Assembly: GCA_031272885.1 (NCBI GenBank)
Contig: JAISSX010000057.1
Location: 124,001 to 188,000, forward strand
Reading direction: 5' to 3'
From: Bifidobacteriaceae bacterium
GTDB taxonomy: Bacteria; Actinomycetota; Actinomycetes; Actinomycetales; WQXJ01
Length of the DNA: 64,000 nucleotides
Of this stretch, positions 13,179 through 62,650 are shown piece by piece. The notes under the pieces are model-generated. The model had not been told where the DNA came from, searched no databases, and saw only the letters and a list, made by a program, of their open reading frames with translations. Each line of letters opens with the position of its first letter. Positions within the stretch are counted from its first letter, which is position 1. A program made the translations under genes and the position numbers.

Positions 13179-16100
13179 TCAGCGGGTGGCCACCGTCTCT
13201 TCGCTGCGGCGGCGCCGGCGCGCCATCAGCACGAAGCCAATGCCCACCAGCGTGGCCAGGCTCGCGCTCACGGCAATCGGCACCGTCGCGTTGGCACCCG
13301 TGATCGGCAACGGCGAGGACGAGCCCACCTTCTCCAGCACGCGGAACGTGCCGGTGGCCGCACCACTGGTTTCACCCGTCAGGGTGACCGTGTGGGTGCC
13401 GTACTCGAAATCGGCCGGGATGGTGAACGCAGCGAACACCACCTTGCCGTTGGCATCGGCCGTCGCCGTGCCCAGTTGGATCGGCGTGGAGTGGACCACA
13501 CCGGTGACCTTTTCGCCGGGCTCGAAGTTCAGGCCGTTGACCTCTTGCGACTCGCCGCGGTAGCGCGTCGCCTCCTTCACCCAAACACTGGGCTTGTCCG
13601 CATCGTCACCGTCGTCCGCCGGACCGGACGGGGTTGGCGTGGAACCGGACCCGCTTTGACCCACCACCGGCGAGGCGGTGCCGGCCGGCAGGTTGTCGTT
13701 CGGGTTGTCGGCCGTGACCGTCAGCGGCTCGTTGTCAACCAACGGGCGGCTCACATCGCAGCTGAACTTGCCGTCCTTGTCCGTGGTGGTGGTGCACAAG
13801 GTGTTGCCATCCTTGTCCTGCACCGTCACCGGGGCATTGGGCAGCGGGCCGCCATCGTCCGTCACCGTACCGGTCACGGTGGTGTCACCCTTCTTGGTCG
13901 GGTCGACATCCACCACCGGCGGCACGTTGGGCGTGTTGACGGTGACTTCCTTCGGGTTACCAGCCGGGTCGGAGGTCGAAGCGGTGATCTGCTCGTTGTC
14001 ACCCAACGGGCGCTTGGTCGGACCGCACTCGAACTTGCCGTCGTCATCGGTGGTGGTCTCGCACAGCGTGTTGCCGTTCTTGTCCTTCACCTTGACCGGC
14101 ACGCCGGGCAGCGGCTCGCCATCGTCCGTCACCGTACCGGTCACGGTGGTGTCACCCACGTCAACCGGGTCGACCGTGATCACCGGCGGCACGTTCGGCG
14201 TCGAAGCCTGCGTGTCACCCTTCTTGCCGGTCTCGGGATCGGTCGCCTCAACCGTGATGACCTCGTTTTCACCCAGCGGGCGCTTGAGGTTGCAGCTGAA
14301 CGTGCCGTCCGCGTTGGTGGTGGTCTGGCACAGCGGGTCACCCGTGGCGTCCTTCACCACCACCGGGAAGCCGGCGGCCGGCTGGCCGTCGTCCGTCACC
14401 CGGCCACTGGCCGTGGTGTCGCCCTTCTGCGGCGGGTTGACCGTCACCTCGGGCTCGGTCTCGTCACCAACGGTGGCGGTACCGGTACCGGGGTTGCCGG
14501 CCGGGTCGGTGGTCGATGCCGTGATCTCTTCACCGTCTTCCAGCGGCCGGCTGGAATCGCAGGACCAGGTGCCATCCGATCCGGTGGTGGCGGTGCACAG
14601 CGTCTCGCCGTCCTCATCCGTCACCGTCACCGGCACGCCGGGCAGCGGCTCGCCGTCGTCCGTCACCGTGCCACTGATGGTGGGGCTGTCGTTGCTCGGC
14701 GGGTCGATGGTGACCACCGGGTCGATGCCGTCCGCCACCGGCTCCGAGGTACCGGAACCGGTGTTACCGGCCGGGTCGGTCGCGGTAGCGGTGATCTCTT
14801 CACCCTCCTCCAGCGGCCGGTTCGGCTGGCAGCTCCAGTGACCGGAGGAATCGGTCACGGCGGTGCACAACGTCTCGCCGTCCTCATCCGTCACCCGCAC
14901 CGGGGCGTTGGGCAGCGGCTCGCCGTCGTCCGTCACCGTGCCACCAATTGAGGTGTCACCGGTGGCCGGATCGTCAACCGTCACCTCTGGTTCGGTGCCG
15001 TCGCCAACCGGGTCGGAGTCAACCGAACCCTCGTTACCGGCGGGGTCGGTCGCCGTAGCGGTCAGGATTTCGCCCTCTTCCAGCGGCCGGTTCGGCTCGC
15101 AGGACCAGGTGCCATCCGGGCCGGTGGTGGTGTGGCACAACTCCTCGCCGTCCTCATCGGTCACAACCACCGGGGCGTTCGGCAGCGGCTCGCCACCGTC
15201 CGTCACCGTGCCGCCGATCACCGGGTCATCGCCGGACGTCGGCTGTTCGGTCAGGGTGACTTCGGGGCCGGTGCCGTCGCCAACGGGCTCCGAGGTACCG
15301 GAACCGGTGTTACCGGCCGGGTCGGTCGCCGTGGCGGTGATCTCTTCACCCTCCTCCAGCGGCCGGTTCGGCGTGCAGCTCCAGTGGCCGGAGGAATCGG
15401 TCACGGCGGTGCACAACGTCTCGCCGTCCTCATCCGTCACCCGCACCGGGGCGTTGGGCAGCGGCTCGCCGTCGTCCGTCACCGTGCCACCAACCGTGTC
15501 GTCACCGGTGGCCGGATCGTCAACCGTCACAACCGGCGGCGTGCCGTCGCCCACCGGGTTCGAGTCAACCGAACCCTCGTTGCCTTCCGGATCCGTGGCC
15601 GTAGCGGTCAGGATTTCGCCCTCTTCCAGCGGCCGGTTCGGCTCGCAGGACCAGGTGCCATCCGGGCCGGTGGTGGTGTGGCACAGCTCCTCGCCGTCCT
15701 CATCGGTCACAACCACCGGGGCGTTCGCCAGCGGTTCACCGCCGTCCGTCACCGTGCCGCCGATCACCGGGTCATCGCCGGATGTCGGCTGCTGGGTGAT
15801 CGCCACCACCGGGTCGGTGCCATCGGACACCGGCTCCGAGGTGCCGGAACCGGTGTTGCCGGCCGGGTCGGTCGCCGTGGCGGTGATCTCTTCACCCTCC
15901 TCCAGCGGCCGGTTCGGCGTGCAGCTCCAGTGGCCGGCGGAATCGGTCACGGCGGTGCACAGCGTGTTGCCGTCCTCATCCGTCACGCGCACCGGGGCGT
16001 TGGGCAGCGGGGCGCCATCGTCCGTCACCGTGCCACCAACTGAGGTGTCACCCGTGGCCGGGTCATCCACCACCACAACCGGCGGCGTGCCGTCGCCCAC

Positions 16101-19100
16101 CGTGGCGGTGCCGGTACCGGGGTTGCCGGCCGGGTCGGTCACGGTGGCGGTGATTTCCTCACCCTCCTCCAGCGGCCGGTTCGGCTCGCAGCTCCAGGTG
16201 CCGTCGGTGCCGGTGGTGGCGACGCACAGCGTAGTGCCGGCGTCATCCTTCACCGTCACCGGCGCGTTCGCCAGCGGCTCGCCTTCATCCGTCACGCGGC
16301 CACCGATCACCGGGTCTTCGCCGGACGTCGGGGTTTCGGTGATAACCATCACCGGCGGCTGGCCATCGCCCACCGTGGCGTCATCGGACGCCGGGTTGCC
16401 GGACGGATCGGCGGCCGAAGCCGTCACCGTTTCGCCCTCGACCAACGGCCGGTTCGAGTTGCAGCTCCACGAGCCGTCACCCTGGGTGTAGGCGGTGCAC
16501 AACGTGGTGCCGCCCGCATCCTTCACCGTCACCGGCGTGCCGGGCAGCGGCGAACCGCTGTCGGTCAGCGTGCCGGCAATGGCCGGGCTGCCGGTGGCGG
16601 GCTCGGGCGTGATGGTCAGCACCGGCGCCGTGGTGTCGTCGGCCGGTAGCACGGTCACAGCATCCGTGGCCAGGTTGCCGGCCGGGTCCTGCGCGCTGGC
16701 GTGAATGGTCTCGCCCTCTTCCAGCGGCCGGTTCGGCTCGCAACTCCACTCGCCATCGGCGTCGGTAGTCGCGGTGCACAGCTCGGTGCCGGCGTCATCC
16801 GTCACCGTCACCACGGTGCCAGGCAGCGGGTCGCCATCGTCCGTCAGCGTGCCGGTGATCTCCTCGTCGCCCTCCTTGGGTGCCGGGGCAATCTCAAGCA
16901 CGGGGTCGATGCCGTCCGCCACCGTGGCGGTGTCGCTGGCCGGGTTGCCGGCCGGGTCGGTGGTGGAGGCCGTGATGGTCTCACCCTCAACCAGGTCGCG
17001 GTTAGCTGTGCAGGCCCAGGTGCCGGTGGAGGAGGTGGTAGCGGTGCACAACTCCGCACCGCCGGCATCCTTCACGTGCACGATGGCGTTCGGCAACGGC
17101 GAACCGTTGTCCGTCACCGTGCCGGCCAGGGCGCGGCTACCCGTTTCGGGCTCAGGCGTGATCTCGATCACCGGAGCGGTGGTGTCATCCTCCGGGCCAA
17201 CCGTCGCGGTGGTGGTGCCCTCGTTGCCGGACGGGTCGGTGGCGGTGGCGGTGATGACCTCGCCCTCCTCCAGCGGCCGGTTCGGCTGGCAGCTCCAGGC
17301 GCCCGATGCCGTGGTGGTGGCTTGGCACAGCTCGGTGCCGGTGTCATCCGTCACCACAACCGGCACGCCGGCCCGCGGGTTGCCGTCGTCCGTCACCGTG
17401 CCGCCGATCGTGTCGTCGCCCTCCTTGGGCGCCGGGGCGATGGTGACCACCGGGTCGGAGCCATCGGACACCGGCTGTGAATCGACCGAAGCCGGGTTGC
17501 CGGCGTCGTCAACGGTCGAGGCCGTGATGACCTCGCCCTCTTCAAGCGGCCGGTTCAGCGTGCAGCTCCACGTACCGTCGGTGCCGGTGACAGCGACGCA
17601 CAGCGTGGCGCCGGCGTCATCCTTGACCGTCACCGTCGCACCCGGCAGCGGGGCGCCGTCGTCCTCCACCGTGCCGCCCACGGTGGGATCACCGGTGGCG
17701 GGCTGCGGATCGAACGTGATGTCCGGGCCGGTGCCGTCACCCACGGTGGCGGTGCCGGAACCCTCGTTGCCAGCCGGATCTTCGGCGGTGGCCGTCACCA
17801 CTTCGCCCTCTTCCAGCGGCCGCACGGAGTCGCAGCTCCAAGAGCCGTCAAGGGCCGTGGTGGTGTGGCACAGCTCGGTGCCGGTGTCATCCGTCACCGT
17901 CACCGGAGCGTTCGCCAACGGCGCGCCGTCATCCGTCACGGTGCCGGCAATGGTCGGATCGTCACCGGACTTGGGCGCCGGCGTGATGGTCACAACCGGG
18001 TCGGTGCCGTCCGCCACCGTGGCCAGGACGTTGGCCTCGTTACCAGCCTCATCGCGCGTGCTGGCGTTGATGGTCTCGCCCTCCTCCAGCGGCCGGTCAC
18101 TGTTGCAGTGCCAGTAGCCTTCGGCGTCGGTGTTGGCCGAGCACAGCGGGAGACCGTTGCCGTCCATCACGAGGACGGGCGCGGCGGGCAGCGGGGCCCC
18201 TTCGTCCGTCACCACACCGGCAATAGTGGTGCTGCCGGTGGTGGGCTGCGGCGTGATCTGGATGACCGGCGGTGTGGTGTCAACCTCCGAGCCAACCGTG
18301 ACCGTGACCGTATCCTCGTTACCCTGAGGATCCTCGGTGGTGGCCGTGATGACCTCGCCCTCTTCGATGGGCCGGTTGGGCTGGCAGCTCCAGGTGCCGT
18401 CCGAGTTGGTAGTGGTGTGGCACAACTCGGCGCCGGTGTCATCCGTTACCGACACCGGGGCGTTCGCCAACGGCGCGCCATCGTCCGTCACCGTGCCGGT
18501 GATCTCATCGTCGCCCTCCCTGGGCGTCGGGGCAATGATGATCTCCGGGTCGGTGCCATCCACCACCGTGGCGGTGGTGCTGGCCGGGTTGCCGGCCACA
18601 TCCTGTGTGGTGGCGGTGATGACCTCGTCCTCCACCAGCGGCCGGCTGGTGGTGCAGCTCCAGGAGCCGTCGGAGGCCGTGACCGCGGTGCACAACTGGG
18701 CGCCACCGGCGTCCGTCACACGGACCGGGGCGTCACCTAGCGGCGTGCCTTCATCGGTCACCGTGCCGGCCACGGCCCGGTCGTCACCGGACTTGGGCTG
18801 GTTGGTGATGGCGATGACCGGCGGGTTGGTGTCGGTACCGACGGCCACAGTGGCCTCGGCCGTACCCTCGTTGCCGGCCGGGTCGGTGGCGGTGGCGGTG
18901 ATGTCCTCGCCTGCCACCAGCGGCCGGGTGGTGCAGCTCCACGTACCGTCCGCGTTGGTGTTGGTGGAACACAGCGTGGCGCCGGTGTCATCCGTTACCG
19001 TCACAGGGGCGTTCGGCAGCGGCGAACCGCTGTCGGTCACGGTGCCACCCACCGTGGTGTCGCCCGCGGCCGGAGCCGGATCGAACGTGACCACAGGGTC

Positions 19101-22100
19101 TGTGGTGTCAACCGCCGGTTGCACCGTGGCGGTGGCGGTGGCGGGGTTGCCGGCCGGGTCGCTGGCCGTGGCCGTCAGGACTTCATCCTGGACCAGGGCG
19201 CGGTTGGGCGGGCAGCTCCACGAGCCGTCACCCTGGGTGTAGGCGGTGCACAGCGTGGTGCCGCCGGCATCCGTCACCGTCACCGGCGTGCCGGCCAGCG
19301 GGGCGCCATCGTCGGACAACGTGCCTGTCACGGCCGGATCGCCCACCTTGGGCGCCGGCGCGATGGCGATCTGCGGCGCGGTGCCGTCAACCACCGTGGC
19401 GTCGTCCTCACCCACGTTGCCGTTGTCGTCTTCGGTCTCGGCGTAGATGGTCTCGCCCTCCACCAGCGGCCGGTTGGCCTGGCAGCTCCACGTGCCATCC
19501 GGCGCCGTGGTGGTGGTGCACAGCGTGGCGCCGGTGTCATCCGTCACCGTCACCGAGGCGCCGCCCAGCGGCGCACCGTCATCGGTCACCGTGCCGGCCA
19601 CCGTGGTGTCGGTGCCGGTCTTGGGATCGGGCGTAATGGTCAGTACCGGCGGCGTGCCATCGGCCACCGTGGCGGTATCGCTGGCAGGGTTGCCGGCCGG
19701 GTCCGAAGTACTGGCGGTGATGGTCTCACCCTCCACCAGGTCGCGGCCCACCGTGCAGCTCCAGGTGCCGTCCGCATTGGTGGTGGTGTGGCACAGCTCG
19801 GCGCCACCGGCGTCCGTCACGGTCACAGTGGCGTCCGGCAGCGGTGAGCCGCTGTCGGTCACGGTGCCTTCCACCGTGGTGTCACCGGTGGCCGGCTCGG
19901 GCGTGATGGTGATGACCGGGGCGGTGGTGTCATCTTCAGGCAGCACCGTGGCCGTGGCCGTGCCCTCGTTGCCCGAGGGGTCTTGCACCGTGGCCGTCAG
20001 GACGTCGCCCTCTTCGATGGCCGGGCTGGGCGTGCAACTCCAGGTGCCGTCCGGGTTGGTAGTGGCGGTGCACACGGGGGTGCCGCCGGGGCCGGTCACG
20101 TTGACCGTGGCGCCACCCAGTGGTGCGCCGTTGTCGGTCACCAGGCCGCCAACAGTGGTGTCACCCTCCTTGGGTGCGGGCGAGAAGGTGATGACCGGGT
20201 CTTCGTCGTCATCGCCCGGACCAACTGTGGCGGTGTCACTGCCGGTGTTACCGGCCGGGTCGGTCGCGGTAGCGGTGATCTCTTCACCCTCCTCCAGCGG
20301 CCGGTTCGGCTGGCAGCTCCACGAGCCGTCGGCCAACGTATGGGCGGTGCACAGCTCGGTGTCGGTGTCATCCGTCACAACCACAGCGGTGCCGGCCGGC
20401 AGCGGCGCACCGTTGTCGGTCAAGGTACCGGAGATCGTGTTGTCACCCTCCTTGGGGGTGGGCGTAATGGTGACAACCGGGTCTTCGGTGTCATCCGCCG
20501 CGGCCACGGTCACGGTGTCTTCGTCCGTGTTACCGGCCGGATCCTCCGTGCTGGCCTTGATCTGTTCGCCCTCGACCAGCGGCCGGTTGACCGTGCAGCT
20601 CCACGAGCCGTCCGGCGCCGTGGTGGTGTCACACAACGTGGCGCCGCCGGCATCGGTCACCTTGACCGGGGCGTTCGGCAGCGGCGAGCCGCTGTCGGTC
20701 ACGGTGCCGGCCACCGTGGTCTCGCCGTCCTTGGGCGTGGGCGCGATGGTGATGACCGGGTCGGTGGTGTCATCGGCCGGGCCAACCGTGGCGTCGGCCG
20801 TGCCCTCGTTGCCGGCCGGGTCGGTCACGGTAGCCGTGATGACCTCGTCCTCTTCGATGGGCCGGTTCGGCGTGCAGCTCCACGTGCCGTCAGCATTGGT
20901 GGTGGTATGGCACAACTCGGCGCCGGTGTCATCCGTCACCGACACCGGGGCGTTCGGCAGCGGGTCACCCTGATCCGTCGCGGTGCCGCCCACCGAGGTG
21001 TCGCCATCCTTGGGCGCCGGCGAGAAGGTCACTACCGGATCGGTCGTGTCAGCCACCGGGCTGGAATCGACCGAGGCCGGGTTGCCGGCATTGTCTTCGG
21101 TGCTGGCGGTGATGACCTCACCGGGCTCCAGGTCGCGGTTGGGCTGGCAGCTCCAGGTGCCGTCCAGGTTGCTGGTGGTGGTGCACAGCGTGGTGCCGGC
21201 GTCATCGGTCACCGTGACAGGAGCACCACCCAGCGGGGCGCCATCGTCCTCCACCGTGCCGCCCACGGAGGTGTCATCCGAGCTGGGCTGCGGGTCGAAC
21301 GTGATGTCGGGCCCGGTGCCGTCACCGACCGTGACGCTGTCATCGGCCGGGTTGCCGGCATCGTCCTGGGTCTCGGCTGTGATGGTCTCGCCTTCCACCA
21401 GTTCACGGTTGGCCGTGCAGCTCCACGAGCCGTCGGTACCGGTGGTGGCGACGCAGAGCGTGTTGTTGGCGGAGTCCTTGACCTCAACCGGGGCGTCGGC
21501 CAGCGGGCTACCGCCGTCGGTCACCGTGCCGGCCACGGTCGTGTCATCGCCGGACTTGGGGGCCGGGTCGATGGTGATGACCGGCGGCAGGCCGTCACCC
21601 ACCGTGGCGGTGTCGGTGCCTTCGTTGCCGGCCGGGTCGGTCGCCGTGGCGGTGATGGTCTCACCCTCCACCAGCGGCCGGCCGGAATCGCAAGACCAAG
21701 AACCATCGGCCGCCGTGTGCGCGGTGCACAGCTCGGCGCCGGTGCTGTCGGTCACAACCACCTCGGTACCGGGCGCCATCGGCGCACCGTTGTCCGTCAC
21801 GGTGCCCTCGATGGTCGGGTCACCCGTCACCGGGGCGGGCGAGATGGTCACCACCGGGTCTTCGGTGTCGACGCCGGACTGGACCACGGCGTCAACCGAA
21901 TCGGTGTTGCCGGCCGGGTCTCGGGTGGCAGCCGTGATGGTCTCACCCGGCACCAGGTCGCGGCTGGCGTCGCAGCTCCACGAGCCGTCTGCCTGCGTGG
22001 TAGCGGTGCACAGCGTGGCGCCGCCGGCATCTGTCACCGTCACCGGGGCGCCGGCCAGCGGCTCGCCCTGATCGGTCACGGTGCCAGCCACCTCGAGGGA

Positions 22101-35818: not shown

Positions 35819-36703
35819 CTACTCGGTAAGCCTCTCCGCCGCCTCCACTACGTTGGCCAGCAGCATGGCCCTTGTCATCGGTCCGACACCGCCCGGGTTG
35901 GGGCTGAGCCAGCCGGCCACTTCTGCCACCTGGGGGGCGACATCGCCGGCAATGCGCGTCTTGCCCGGCCGGTCCGGGTCCGGCACCCGCGACACGCCCA
36001 CGTCCAACACCACGGCGCCGGGCTTGACGTGTTCGGGTTGGACCAGACCAGGCACGCCGGCGGCGGCCACGATGACGTCCGCCTGGCGCAGCAGGGCGGG
36101 CAGGTCGCGCGTGCCGGTGTGGGTCAACGTGACGGTGGCGTTGACCTCGCGCCGGGTCAACAGCAGGCCGATCGACCGGCCCACCGTGATGCCGCGGCCC
36201 AGCACCACCACGTGGGCGCCGGCCAGGTCGATGCCGTAGCGGCGGATCAGCTCGATGATGCCCCGCGGCGTACAGGGCAGCGGCGTGGTGGTGGGCCGGT
36301 TGACGTTCAGCACCAGCGCGCCGAGGTTGGCCGGGTGCAGGCCGTCCGCGTCCTTGGCCGGGTCGATGGCGTTGATGGCGGCATCGGCATCCAGGTGGCG
36401 CGGCAGGGGTAGCTGCACAATGTAACCGGTACAGGACGGGTCGGCATTCAGTTGCCCGATGGCGTCCATCACCTGGCTCTGGCTGGCCTCCTCCGGCAGG
36501 TCAACCCTGATGGAGGCCAAACCGACCTCGGCACAGTCGCGGTGCTTGCCGGCCACGTAGATCACCGAGCCGGGGTCCTGCCCCACCAGGACAGTGCCCA
36601 GACCGGGAGTGATGCCGCGGGCCTTGAGGGCGTCGATGCGTTCCTTCAATTCGGCCTTGATCTGGGCGGCGGTCGCCTTGCCGTCCAGCACCTGGGCCGT
36701 CAC
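35819..36703 (-). CDS. folD: Methylene-THF dehydrogenase / methenyl-THF cyclohydrolase
   Basis: A 294-residue bifunctional folate enzyme giving 10-formyl-THF for purines and formyl-Met. The substrate-site Lys lies in YVAGKHRDC, the second signature is [12 protein letters not shown], and the NADP loop is [12 protein letters not shown] 36703 overlaps the glyA stop (GTGA), so the two one-carbon genes are coupled and both lie downstream of the ZTP riboswitch. Confidence 0.95.
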
Positions 36704-37992
36704 TGGACCAGCCCGGGGTAGAGCGGGAACGTGTCAGCCAACTTGGCGGTGCGGGCCTTGAGGGCGTCCACGTCCGCCGCCGGGCCGTCCCGCAGAGCGG
36801 TGGCGATGACATCCGCCACCTCGGCGAACTCGGTGGGGCCGAAGCCGCGCGTGGCCAGGGCCGGAGTGCCGATACGCAGGCCGCTGGTGACCTTGGGCGG
36901 GCGGGGGTCGAACGGCACGGCGTTGCGGTTGACGGTGATACCCGCCTCGTCCAACAGGTCCTCAGCCTGCTGGCCGTCCAACTGCGAGTTCCTCAAGTCC
37001 ACCAGGACCAGGTGAACATCGGTGCCGCCGGTCAGCACCGAGACGCCGGCCGCCGCCACGTCCGGTTGGGTCAGGCGTTCGGCCAGGATCTGGGCCCCTT
37101 CCAGGGTGCGGCGCTGGCGGTCCTTGAACTCGTCGGAGGCGGCGATCTTCAGCGCCACGGCCTTGGCGGCAATCACATGCATCAGCGGACCACCCTGCTG
37201 ACCTGGGAAAACGGCCGAGTCGATCTTCCGCCCCCACTGTTCGGCGCTGCGGCTCAAGATCAGGCCGGACCGCGGCCCGCCCAGGGTCTTGTGCACGGTG
37301 GTCGAAGTAATGTCGGCCCATGGCACGGGGCTGGGGTGCAGGCCAGCCGCCACCAGGCCGGCGAAGTGGGCCATGTCCACCCACAGGTAGGCGCCCACCT
37401 CGTCGGCAATCTGCCGGAAGGCCTCGAAGTCCAGGTGACGCGGGTAGGCCGACCAGCCGGCCACGATCACCTGGGGGCGGTGCTGCAGGGCGGCCGCGCG
37501 GACGGCATCGGGCTCAATCCGGTAGGTCTGCGGGTCCACGCCGTAACTGGCCACGTCATACAGCCGGCCGGAGAAGTTGATCTTCATGCCGTGGGTCAGG
37601 TGGCCGCCGTGGGCCAATTCCAGGCCCAGCATCCGTTCGCCCGGCTGCAGCATGGCCGCCAGCACGGCAGCGTTGGCTTGGGCGCCCGCGTGGGGCTGCA
37701 CGTTGGCGTAGTCCGCCCCGAACAGGTCCTTGGCGCGTTGAATGGCCAGTGATTCGGCGATGTCCACCTGTTCGCAGCCGCCGTAGTAGCGCCGGCCGGG
37801 GTAGCCTTCCGCGTACTTGTTGGTCAGCACCGAACCTTGGGCCTGCAGCACGGCGCGAGGGACGAAGTTCTCCGACGCGATCATCTCAAGGGTGCGGCGC
37901 TGGCGGGTCAGTTCGCCCTCCAGGACGGCCGCGATCTCGGGATCGACTTCGGCCAGGGGCAGGGCGGCAACGCTGGTGGGGTTAGTGCTCAT
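36700..37992 (-). CDS. glyA: Serine hydroxymethyltransferase
   Basis: A 430-residue PLP enzyme converting serine and THF to glycine and methylene-THF, the substrate of FolD next door. The Schiff-base Lys is K235 in [13 protein letters not shown]; the folate/PLP region MIASENF (38-44) and [15 protein letters not shown] (58-72) are intact. ATG 37992 follows AAGGAG at 6 nt; an earlier in-frame ATG would use residues within the riboswitch leader. Expression should respond to ZTP, the folate-stress alarmone, through the leader at 38020-38135. Confidence 0.95.
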
Positions 37993-38019
37993 GTGGTGCT
38001 CCTTGGTCATGGGTGGGCC

Positions 38020-38135
38020 GGCCGGTGGCGACCCAGGCGTACGGCCGCTCATTCACCACGTGTGCCGTTCCCCGGTGGTAGACCACCTGAAGACTTGAAC
38101 AGTCTTACGAAGCGCCAGTCACGGCACGGGGTCAA
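38020..38135 (-). promoter_or_regulatory. ZTP (pfl) riboswitch upstream of glyA-folD
   Basis: The minus-strand leader contains the conserved blocks of the pfl motif in order: CCGTGACTGGCG (about 38123-38112), CAGGTGG, ACCACCGGGGAACGG (about 38079-38065) and CCGTACGCCTGGG (about 38044-38032). GTGCCGT and ACGGCAC flank the first domain and can pair. It ends about 30 nt before the glyA ATG, next to the ribosome-binding site. Known ZTP riboswitches control one-carbon and purine genes, exactly as here. Confidence 0.9.
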
Positions 38136-38199: not shown

Positions 38200-38375
38200 G
38201 TAGAGACTTGTTGCAGTCCGGGGGCGCCGTCGGCCCCTTGGGTAGAGACTCGTTGCATTCTCGGGGCCAGAATTCTGCAACAACTCTCTGCCCAACGCCG
38301 GGAAAGGGCCGATTTGGTGCAACAACTCTCTACCCCAGGCCCCAATCAAGCTCCGGCACCGCAACAACTCTCTAC
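38200..38375. repeat. Array A: five GTAGAGAGTTGTTGCA motifs, 42-bp pitch
   Basis: Copies at 38200 and 38242 read forward (GTAGAGACTTGTTGCA, GTAGAGACTCGTTGCA); copies at 38276, 38318 and 38360 are inverted. Same-strand copies are exactly 42 bp apart, about four helical turns. The intervening 26 bp differ between units. Copies 2 and 3 face each other and can form a hairpin. Confidence 0.85.
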
Positions 38376-38408
38376 CCGGATGCCCGATGGCGTCCGCCCC
38401 AGCAATCC

Positions 38409-38582
38409 GGAGAGACTTCCGGTAGTCAACCAGACCGAAAACGGCGATCCGGAGAGACTTCCGGTAGTTCTGCAGCCCGTCCAGGCCAGGTGGAGAGACT
38501 TTCGGTAGTCCTGGAGCGCCAGAACTACCGGAACGCTCTCCGCTCGGTGGATCCGGGCCCGAAAACTACCGAAAGTCTCTCC
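38409..38582. repeat. Array B: five GGAGAGACTTCCGGTAGT motifs, 41-42-bp pitch
   Basis: Forward copies start at 38409, 38451 and 38492; inverted copies at 38524 and 38565. Same-strand spacing is 41-42 bp. The core AGAGACTT is shared with array A. Copies 3 and 4 face each other around CTGG-AGCG-CCAG and can form a long imperfect hairpin (38492-38541). Confidence 0.85.
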
Positions 38583-38602: not shown

Positions 38603-38930
38603 GGTTGCCGGGGTGGCGCCGGCGGCGGGTGCTTCTTGCCCGGCTCCGGCTGCCCCATGCGTGTCGACGCAGCGCAGCGGAGGAGAAGCGCCAGACAAGG
38701 ATGGCGCCTTTCGGTGTCCGGGACTTGTTCCCGGACACCGAGCCGGGCAAGCACCACCGTGCGGCCACCCAAGTAGCAACACGCACCACGGGTGCATCAA
38801 GCCAACCAACCCAAACCTCAAGGTGCGCGTTGACGTGTTGGGTGGCCGCACGGCGGGTGTTGCCCAGGCGGCCCGCAGGGTGAGCCTGGCCTGGGCAACA
38901 AGCACCCGCCGCCGGCGCCACCCCGCCAAC
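38603..38930. repeat. Nested long inverted repeats
   Basis: Outer arms of about 41 bp (38604-38644 and 38889-38930) share a 26-bp perfect core (38609-38634 / 38900-38925). Inside lie a 19-bp pair with one mismatch (38754-38772 / 38839-38857), a perfect 11-bp pair (38859-38869 / 38889-38899) and a perfect 13-bp hairpin with 5-nt loop (38711-38741). The segment could fold as one large cruciform or as a structured RNA. Confidence 0.75.
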
Positions 38931-39038
38931 CACCCCACCGAACACATCGACACGCACACGCTGGGCTTATCCACACACAACGATGAAACCGAAGTACGCA
39001 GCCGGGGAGACAACCAAACGTGTGACGGGGGGCGGGTC

Positions 39039-39107
39039 CACGGAACCGTCCCCCGTAACCCGCCACACGGAACCGTCCCCAGTAACACGCCGTCCCCGGT
39101 AACACCG
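39039..39107. repeat. Three GTTACTGGGGACGG-type repeat units
   Basis: Read on the minus strand, three units of about 27 bp begin GTTAC(C/T/G)GGGGACGG; two continue with TTCCGTG. They sit at 39091-39107, 39064-39090 and 39039-39063. The same GTTACTGGGG(A/T)CGG head forms the 28-bp units at 62321-62650, so this is one family at two places in the window. The GGGGACGGTTCC part resembles REP-like sequences found in other bacteria. Confidence 0.7.
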
Positions 39108-39157
39108 CCCCGCTCGTTCGAGACGCGCGCCGCACCGAACAGCAGTCGCCCCGCTCA

Positions 39158-39331
39158 GATGCGTCCAATTGGGCCATTTGTCCCAATTGGACGGATTTGC
39201 GGGCCGGATCGGGGCTTCACCGAGCAGAGGCCAGACAGCGCAATGTCCTGACCTGCGACAACGCTGCGGCCGTCTCCGCCACTGCCACCAGAATTGGTCC
39301 AATTGGGACAAATGGCCCAATCGGACGCATC
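39158..39331. repeat. 35-bp inverted repeat (one mismatch) with shared core
   Basis: Arms 39158-39192 and 39297-39331 are reverse complements except one base. Each arm itself contains CCAATTGG-like half-palindromes around GGGCCATTTGTCCC. The 104-bp spacer holds CTGACCTGCGACAACGCTG (39248-39266) followed by CGGCCG, matching the core of the inverted repeat at 3410-3519. Confidence 0.85.
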
Positions 39332-39363
39332 GGCGGGTTGGACCGAGGCCAGGCCGATACCGG

Positions 39364-39646: not shown

Positions 39647-39666
39647 GCCCCGCTTCATGCCGGGGC
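39647..39666 (-). terminator. Hairpin after the CNNM-family gene
   Basis: GCCCCG (39647-39652) pairs with CGGGGC (39661-39666), directly at the stop codon of the minus-strand gene, followed by the 12-bp palindrome CACCAATTGGTG (39636-39647). No T run follows, so the call is tentative. Confidence 0.45.
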
Positions 39667-40673
39667 TAGTGGCGTTGCATGACGTCCTTGATTTCGCCGA
39701 CCAGCTCTTCCAGCACGTCCTCCAGGAAGACCACGCCGCCCGGCACCTCAACCAGGTGCGAGTGGGTCATCTGCATGGTGGCCAAGATGTCCTCGATCTC
39801 GTCGCCGGCCTCGGCCGGGGTCAGGTGGCGCAGCCGGCCGGACGGCACGGGCCGGTCGCGGTGGGCGTCATCGGCCAGGTCAAGCACGTCCATGATGTGC
39901 AGATAACCGGTCAACCGCCCGTCCAGCGACACCGGGAAGCGCGAGAACCCGGTCCGCGCCACCTCCTGCTCCAATTGCGCCGGCGTCACCCCGGCCGGCA
40001 CACACACCAGTTTGTCCCGCGGCACCATAACGTCCGCCGCCGTCTTGGTGGAGAACTCAAGCGACCCGCTGATCAGCCCCTCGGCATCGGGCAACACCCC
40101 CGCCTCGGTGGAGTGATGCACAATGGCGGCCACCTCAACGGCAGTGAAAGCGCTCGCCACCTCGGTTTTCGGTGTCACCCGCAACGCCCGCAGCACCAGC
40201 CAACACAGCCCGCGCAGCGCCGCCGTCACCGGATAGGTGATCCACGCCAACACCACCAGCACCGGGCCCAAGAGCAAGGCGGCCCGTTCGGGGCCGGCCA
40301 GGGACAGGTTCTTCGGCACCATTTCGCCCAGCACCACGTGCAGGTAGACCACCAGCACCAGGGCGATGGCGGCCGCCACCCCGTGGGCCGAACCATGGCC
40401 CAGGCCCAACCGTTCCATGGGCCCGGTCAGGGCGTGGGCCAGGGCCGATTCGGCCACCGCCCCCAACGAGGTCGAAGCCACCGTGACACCCAATTGCAGG
40501 CAGGCCAGCATTGAGGGCATATGCTCCAGCGCGTACAACACCAGCCGGGCGGGCTTGGACCCGGCCTCGGCCCGCGGTTCGATCTGCGAACGGCGCACCG
40601 ACATGATGGCGAACTCGGCGGCCACGAAGAACGCGTTGGCGGCCAGCAGGGCCAGGGCAAGCACAAACGGCAT
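39666..40673 (-). CDS. CNNM/HlyC-family membrane protein, short form
   Basis: A 335-residue protein with a DUF21 (CNNM) membrane domain (about 1-160, with VVLGEMVPKNLSLAGPE) and a CBS pair (about 190-335, with VMVPRDKLV, FSRFPV and VVFLEDVLEELVGEI). It lacks the C-terminal CorC_HlyC domain present in its upstream partner. Such proteins are linked to Mg2+ or other ion efflux. ATG 40673 overlaps the partner's stop (TGATG), so the two are coupled and may form a heterodimer. Confidence 0.88.
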   Translation of the reverse strand: MPFVLALALLAANAFFVAAEFAIMSVRRSQIEPRAEAGSKPARLVLYALEHMPSMLACLQLGVTVASTSLGAVAESALAHALTGPMERLGLGHGSAHGVAAAIALVLVVYLHVVLGEMVPKNLSLAGPERAALLLGPVLVVLAWITYPVTAALRGLCWLVLRALRVTPKTEVASAFTAVEVAAIVHHSTEAGVLPDAEGLISGSLEFSTKTAADVMVPRDKLVCVPAGVTPAQLEQEVARTGFSRFPVSLDGRLTGYLHIMDVLDLADDAHRDRPVPSGRLRHLTPAEAGDEIEDILATMQMTHSHLVEVPGGVVFLEDVLEELVGEIKDVMQRH

Positions 40674-62320: not shown

Positions 62321-62650
62321 GGGCCGACCCCAGTAACCCCGCAACACGGGGCCGACCCCAGTAACCCCGCAACACCGGGCCGACCCCAGTAACCCCGCAA
62401 CACCGGGCCGACCCCAGGAACCCCGCGTCACGCGGCCAACCCCCGTAACCCAGCAACCCGCGCCCTACCCCAGGCACAGAGCAACACCCGGCCGACCCCC
62501 GCAACCCCGCTACACGCGGCCCACCCCAGTAACCCCGCTACACGGGGCCTCGCCCTGTCACGACGGAACACCGGGCCGACCCCAGTAACCCCGCAACACC
62601 GGGCCGACCCCAGTAACCCCGCAACACCGGGCCGACCCCAGCAACCCTTA
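62321..62650. repeat. 28-bp tandem array, 12 units
   Basis: Units start every 28 bp from 62321 to 62629 without any indel. The consensus begins GGGCCGACCCCAGTAACCCC and continues GCAACACC. Units 1-3 and 10-12 are nearly identical, units 4-9 are diverged. A short hairpin CATGCCG/CGGCATG (62290-62313) precedes the array. The 459-bp gap 62196-62654 contains nothing else. Confidence 0.9.

Follow-up and report, generated by a model that had tools for sequence, protein, structure and literature searches.

The region 38200-38582 of the window (the whole stretch of 64,000 nucleotides analysed here) carries ten copies of one asymmetric ~18-bp site, GGAGAGASTTNYKGYAGT, which follow each other at 41-42 bp in an ordered orientation. 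Comparison at the sequence level gives a roughly even chance (about 0.5) that this locus is a member of a genus-specific, dispersed family of phased, asymmetric and putatively protein-binding arrays, homogenised within each genome.

The ten-site locus

An overview is given in Table 1. The sites are laid out as FF RRR (type A) followed by FFF RR (type B). Motif A (GTAGAGASTYGTTGCA) occurs five times in the window, every copy within 38200-38375 and in the order +,+,-,-,-. By shuffling, 0.57 copies are expected per window and five were reached in 1/100 shuffles. Motif B (GGAGAGACTTYCGGTAGT) likewise occurs five times, exclusively in 38409-38582 (+,+,+,-,-), with an expectation of 0.02 copies per window and five copies in 0/100 shuffles. 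Start-to-start steps within one orientation are 42, 42 and 42 for A and 42, 41 and 41 for B. Since the gap from A to B holds the same step, all ten sites fall on a single lattice of about 41.7 bp. The position counts and shuffles thus confirm what the first-pass annotation had described, namely ten copies with ordered orientation at a pitch of 41-42 bp. Its consensus for array A applies to the inverted copies but not to the two forward ones, which read GTAGAGACTTGTTGCA and GTAGAGACTCGTTGCA.

Table 1. Elements of the ten-site locus (window coordinates).
Element	Position	Strand	Description
Array A, forward arm	38200..38257	+	two copies of GTAGAGACTYGTTGCA at 38200-38215 and 38242-38257, step 42
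Array A, inverted arm	38276..38375	-	three copies of G[T/C]AGAGAGTTGTTGC[A/G] at 38276-38291, 38318-38333 and 38360-38375, step 42
A-B junction	38376..38408	.	conserved type, recurs in many other arrays; 38 bp separate the 5' A of one flanking motif from that of the other
Array B, forward arm	38409..38509	+	three copies of GGAGAGACTTYCGGTAGT at 38409-38426, 38451-38468 and 38492-38509, steps 42 and 41
Array B, centre	38510..38523	.	local inverted repeat of the TTCTGG-AGCG-CCAGAA type, nearly invariant among B arrays
Array B, inverted arm	38524..38582	-	two copies at 38524-38541 and 38565-38582, step 41
Whole lattice, FF RRR FFF RR	38200..38582	.	ten sites; corresponds to G000:C59:162200-162582, one of about 27 arrays in the genome

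The locus lies in the interval that separates glyA (minus strand, 36700-38010) from the following gene (minus strand, 39666-40673), and codon statistics mark this interval as non-coding. A repeat within a protein-coding gene was rejected, since the reading frame would not survive steps of 41 and 42. The Rfam scan gave no match to the array; the sole match nearby is a ZMP/ZTP riboswitch (RF01750, 53.4 bits) at 38024-38132 on the minus strand, which is located directly upstream of glyA and adjoins array A.

The window holds further repeats. A second dispersed repeat at 38603-38945, an inverted-repeat element of ~340 bp, has 36 partial matches across the genome and is often found next to arrays. 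Short repeats built on the word CCCCAGTAAC (GGAACCGTCCCCAGTAAC type) are found at 39039-39105 and at 62321-62647, the latter being a 28-bp unit repeated 11.7 times. An inverted pair of a GGCCATTTGTCCCAATTGG-type word at 39150-39337 recurs in another intergenic region (L073). Long tandem repeats of 267-279 bp at 13757-21061 probably encode a large repetitive surface protein.

Dispersed arrays share one motif and one geometry

The A core has 83 and the B core 101 matches in the genome of the window (G000; 2.95 Mb, 81 contigs), compared to 4 and 2 for the reversed control patterns. The matches group into about 27 arrays and six single motifs; two contig ends (L052 and L053) look like the same array. 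The number of units per array ranges from 1 to 13. None of the arrays lies inside a predicted gene, and they are found upstream of, between and downstream of genes alike. Flanking genes are housekeeping or mixed without a functional theme. A regulon was therefore rejected, the neighbours including topA, ftsZ, purD, an argininosuccinate-lyase-type lyase, ribosomal L25, glyA, phosphoglucomutase and FTR1, among others.

The two separate motif types of the first-pass annotation turned out to be subtypes of one motif. Aligned on AGAGA, A (AGAGASTTGTTGCA) and B (AGAGASTTYCGGTAGT) differ at a few inner positions, and intermediates (AGAGACTTGCTGCAGT, AGAGACTTGCGGTAGT) occur elsewhere. A units begin with GTAG and B units with GGAG; the base at -1 is G in 60% and T in 38% in G000 and G in 100% in a second genome of the same genus (G015, see below). 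Information content is concentrated at positions -2 to +15, a profile in which motif conservation is partly ascertainment, the units having been found by motif. The spacers, previously taken to be unique, are of slot-specific types that recur at the corresponding slots of other arrays. In most B modules the centre forms a perfect local hairpin; some array centres join different subtypes. Two-unit remnants keep only the two outermost units; these doublets and the single motifs look like remnants of internal deletion.

The geometry is rather strict. Steps of 41 or 42 bp account for 95/97 same-orientation steps in G000 and 73/73 in G015, and facing pairs have a fixed distance of 45 in 24/28 and 14/14 cases, respectively. 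Back-to-back pairs are 38 apart in 8/12. Nearly all steps amount to 41-42 bp, including the forward-to-inverted and the A-to-B junction, if counted from about 1.75 bases inside AGAGA, an offset that was fitted by us. The phase kept over two flips could come from a single in-place inversion of a tandem array, and a lattice across flips alone is hence no proof of phasing.

Occurrence in other genomes

The arrays are restricted to one genus. The second carrier, G015, is the only other genome of the genus and represents a second species; its arrays match those of the Bifidobacteriaceae MAG Md513_bin16, which judging by sample naming probably stems from a termite gut. Spaced motif pairs number 53 in G015 versus 0 in 16 other genomes of the family. 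A search for the single B-type motif yielded 95 matches in G000, 90 in G015 and 0-1 in the 16 other family genomes (reversed-pattern control 0-3). Sampling was extended to two sets of 396 genomes each, one from the order and one from the phylum; they overlap slightly and together make up roughly 790 Actinomycetota. Here one further multi-locus match was obtained, G279 from another family; two other sampled genomes gave one match each, and the reversed control never exceeded 2 matches in any sampled genome. Phage, plasmid and viral collections yielded no related array, the sole viral pattern match (L124) being a single pair.

A Dysgonamonadaceae genome, Nc350_bin47 (L101, L119), was left aside as a cross-phylum relative because it carries a homogeneous one-orientation 41-bp tandem repeat with AGAGAGTTTCTGCAG, and because a scan of 257 Gb for a pattern spaced by 41-43 bp should yield a few such cases by chance. 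This repeat (L101, L119:3200-3600) reads GAGAGAGTTTCTGCAGGTGAGAATTTCTTCTCGGACTCCGC with a second subtype ending in TTTTCCGAGG; it resembles the present motif, which may be chance. Other isolated matches of the pattern scan were taken as chance.

G279 exhibits 38 distinct units with the consensus CGAGAGACTTYNGGGC at about 13 places of a 3.67-Mb contig; among 24 genomes of its family, the other 23 have no arrays. In its CGAGAGASTTNNGG arrays 17 steps are exactly 21 bp and 4 steps 42 bp. The pitch is near whole helical turns in both cases, four in G000 and two in G279. Shared with G000 are the AGAGA[C>G]TTNNGG site, the choice of C or G at position 6, the exact 21/42-bp step, some forward-then-inverted arrangements and the intergenic location. 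In contrast, G279 shows half the step, a shorter conserved site and a location mostly between convergent genes, at 3' gene ends and often by stop codons. The arrays of both genomes are possibly related. Coarse GC skew of the G279 contig (C1, L171-L182) suggests more 21-bp-step arrays on the origin side. At L173 two arrays, one forward and one inverted, are separated by 1.6 kb; a mobile element was rejected there, as the intervening genes have no transposase domain.

Motif and pitch are conserved while spacers drift

Aligned in register, the window array and other G000 arrays agree to ~90% in the motif and mostly 65-80% in the spacer. In comparison with G015 arrays the motif remains near 90% while spacers drop to about 54%. 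These alignments are less exposed to motif ascertainment, but were seeded by similarity. Gap-free stretches reach 379 bp (L061), 193 bp (L072) and 171 bp (L055) within G000, other alignments having a few gaps, and 170-190 bp in several alignments to G015 arrays (L123, L095, L120, L121, L108, L100). Per 100 substitutions, arrays show 7.1 gap openings versus 14.3 in the adjacent unphased repeat 38603-38945. The family thus behaves as a phased array should, with motif and spacing conserved and the spacer free to change. The checks proposed in the first-pass annotation, a genome-wide search for the spaced motif and a comparison of motif and spacer in relatives, both came out in its favour: since arrays recur throughout the genome and in a relative, the locus is neither solitary nor unconserved.

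Two G015 arrays adjoin orthologues of genes that flank G000 arrays (L107/L051, L120/L073), compared to ~0.3 shared sites expected by chance according to our estimate. At one further site an array is present in G015 (L110) but lacking at the equivalent place in G000 (L075). Between the species, arrays from orthologous sites resemble each other no more than other pairs do; within one genome a similarity of 75-95% is common. Hence the copies are homogenised or re-dispersed inside each genome.

Phased binding sites as the favoured reading

The reading given an even chance above implies the following model. Each ~42-bp unit offers one asymmetric ~18-bp site per four helical turns. Forward copies followed by inverted copies make up a convergent module, and A and B modules can be joined. 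A putative sequence-specific DNA-binding protein would fill the sites in register on one face of the DNA, oligomerise along the array from both sides and meet at the centre. At intergenic places scattered over the chromosome, bound arrays may serve to organise or mark the DNA, and recombination or some mobiliser would spread and homogenise the copies. Binding to one face had already been proposed in the first-pass annotation and is favoured by the conserved motif and pitch, the drifting spacers and the recurrence of arrays, the binder itself being putative. A partition site in the sense of a single locus, another of its options, does not agree with about 27 dispersed loci.

A broader version of this idea includes G279. 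A putative DNA-binding family of Actinomycetota would read AGAGASTT-type sites on a 21-bp lattice, at every step in G279 and at every second in G000, and scattered convergent arrays would be chromosome-organising or marking platforms in which geometry, and not sequence alone, is the signal. We regard this extension as doubtful.

The arrays provide exact baits and a spacing test for finding the binder in uncultured Bifidobacteriaceae, and in a second family too if the G279 arrays are related. Moreover, the pitch hardly changes by a base pair from one species to the other even though the sequence separating the sites is not retained; in this sense the family is a clean natural example of what looks like selection on DNA geometry.

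Alternative explanations

The best-surviving alternative is a selfish, non-autonomous dispersed repeat of BIME- or MITE-like type, which we consider possible on balance, if somewhat unlikely. The array would be the substrate of a copying or moving enzyme, motif and spacing would be kept because copies without them fail to spread, and the host would gain nothing. Conservation of the motif would equally follow if the site were needed only for spreading. The greater similarity of arrays within a genome than at orthologous sites is consistent with this explanation, as are the site occupied in G015 and empty in G000, the remnants reduced to their outermost units as if the inside had been deleted, the intergenic insertion without gene theme and the other dispersed repeats that adjoin arrays. 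The search for a RAYT/Y1 transposase (PF01797), however, gave no match in G000, which is 95% complete, nor in G015, 69% complete, while 5/14 control genomes had one. An array-flanked transposase was not seen and no target-site duplication could be defined. That no array turned up in the phage, plasmid and viral collections argues against this explanation as well, and so do the two sites common to both species.

The monomer itself shows no palindrome, folding no better than shuffles. The difference is +0.2/+0.1 kcal in G015 and -0.4/-1.1 kcal in G000, where about half of the units lie below the shuffle mean. Membership in the REP/BIME class was rejected on these grounds: although the GTAG and GGAG feet hint at it, the monomers lack a palindrome and the genomes yielded no REP transposase.

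A structured RNA, whose array transcripts fold into long nested hairpins and act as transcript stabiliser, terminator or source of small RNA, appears improbable. Compared to shuffled sequence, both strands fold much better (z -7.9 and -9.1), yet this follows from inverted copies by construction. The hairpin at the centre of most B modules and the G279 arrays between convergent genes beside stop codons would agree with an RNA; the centres joining different subtypes, the occurrence of G000 arrays on every side of genes and the missing Rfam match would not. Across 21 modules no compensatory changes and no covariation were detected between nested forward and inverted partners. Their motif identity is 0.852 versus 0.853 for non-nested pairs, and nesting hardly raises the likeness of spacers (0.41 against 0.39). 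The RNA option of the first-pass annotation is weakened because nested partners do not covary and monomers show no excess of folding.

There is similarly little to be said for a functionless repeat of the neutral, satellite-like kind, whose copies stay alike through gene conversion and turnover of units and whose step is the inherited unit length: it would explain the variable unit number (1 to 13) and the homogenisation within each genome, but conversion alone would treat motif and spacer of the same unit alike, and these differ strongly in conservation, with the spacing outlasting the spacer sequence between species.

Comparison with known systems

In line with the first-pass annotation, which knew of no element of this form, 5.39 million open-licence papers and family libraries, including Rfam, gave no described counterpart. 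A CRISPR array was rejected, as orientation flips, repeats vary and spacers recur between loci.

Streptococcal BOX elements are modular and dispersed with variable numbers of ~45-bp inner units. The present arrays are modular, dispersed and variable in unit number as well; unlike BOX, they showed no boxA/boxC-like end modules, and units of either orientation flank a centre.

A palindrome linked to a transposase is the basis of many familiar dispersed repeats in bacteria; this family has neither a palindromic unit nor such a transposase. A REP is made up of a palindrome preceded by a tetranucleotide, usually GTAG; REPs are set in BIMEs and tied to a tnpA-REP (RAYT) transposase (PMC8266576, PMC3733652). 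Most GTAG REP families have stems of 6-13 bp (PMC3733652). The arrays resemble REP, BIME and REPIN elements in being dispersed, intergenic and high in copy number, with several subtypes and ordered inverted pairs, and perhaps in their outward-facing GTAG or GGAG outer feet. They differ in the lack of a monomer palindrome and a Y1 transposase, and in a fixed step of 41-42 bp with up to 13 sites and long runs of the same orientation.

In plasmid replication iterons and sites of the ParB/ParR type an asymmetric site recurs in the same direction and in helical register. An iteron or partition site of a plasmid or phage was rejected in view of about 27 loci next to housekeeping or mixed genes; plasmids, phages and viral contigs likewise yielded no such array. 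The arrays are further set apart from iterons and centromeres by dispersal, by convergent orientation and by no adjacent replication or partition gene being seen. What they have in common with them is the asymmetric site repeated in helical register, including the 21-bp step in G279.
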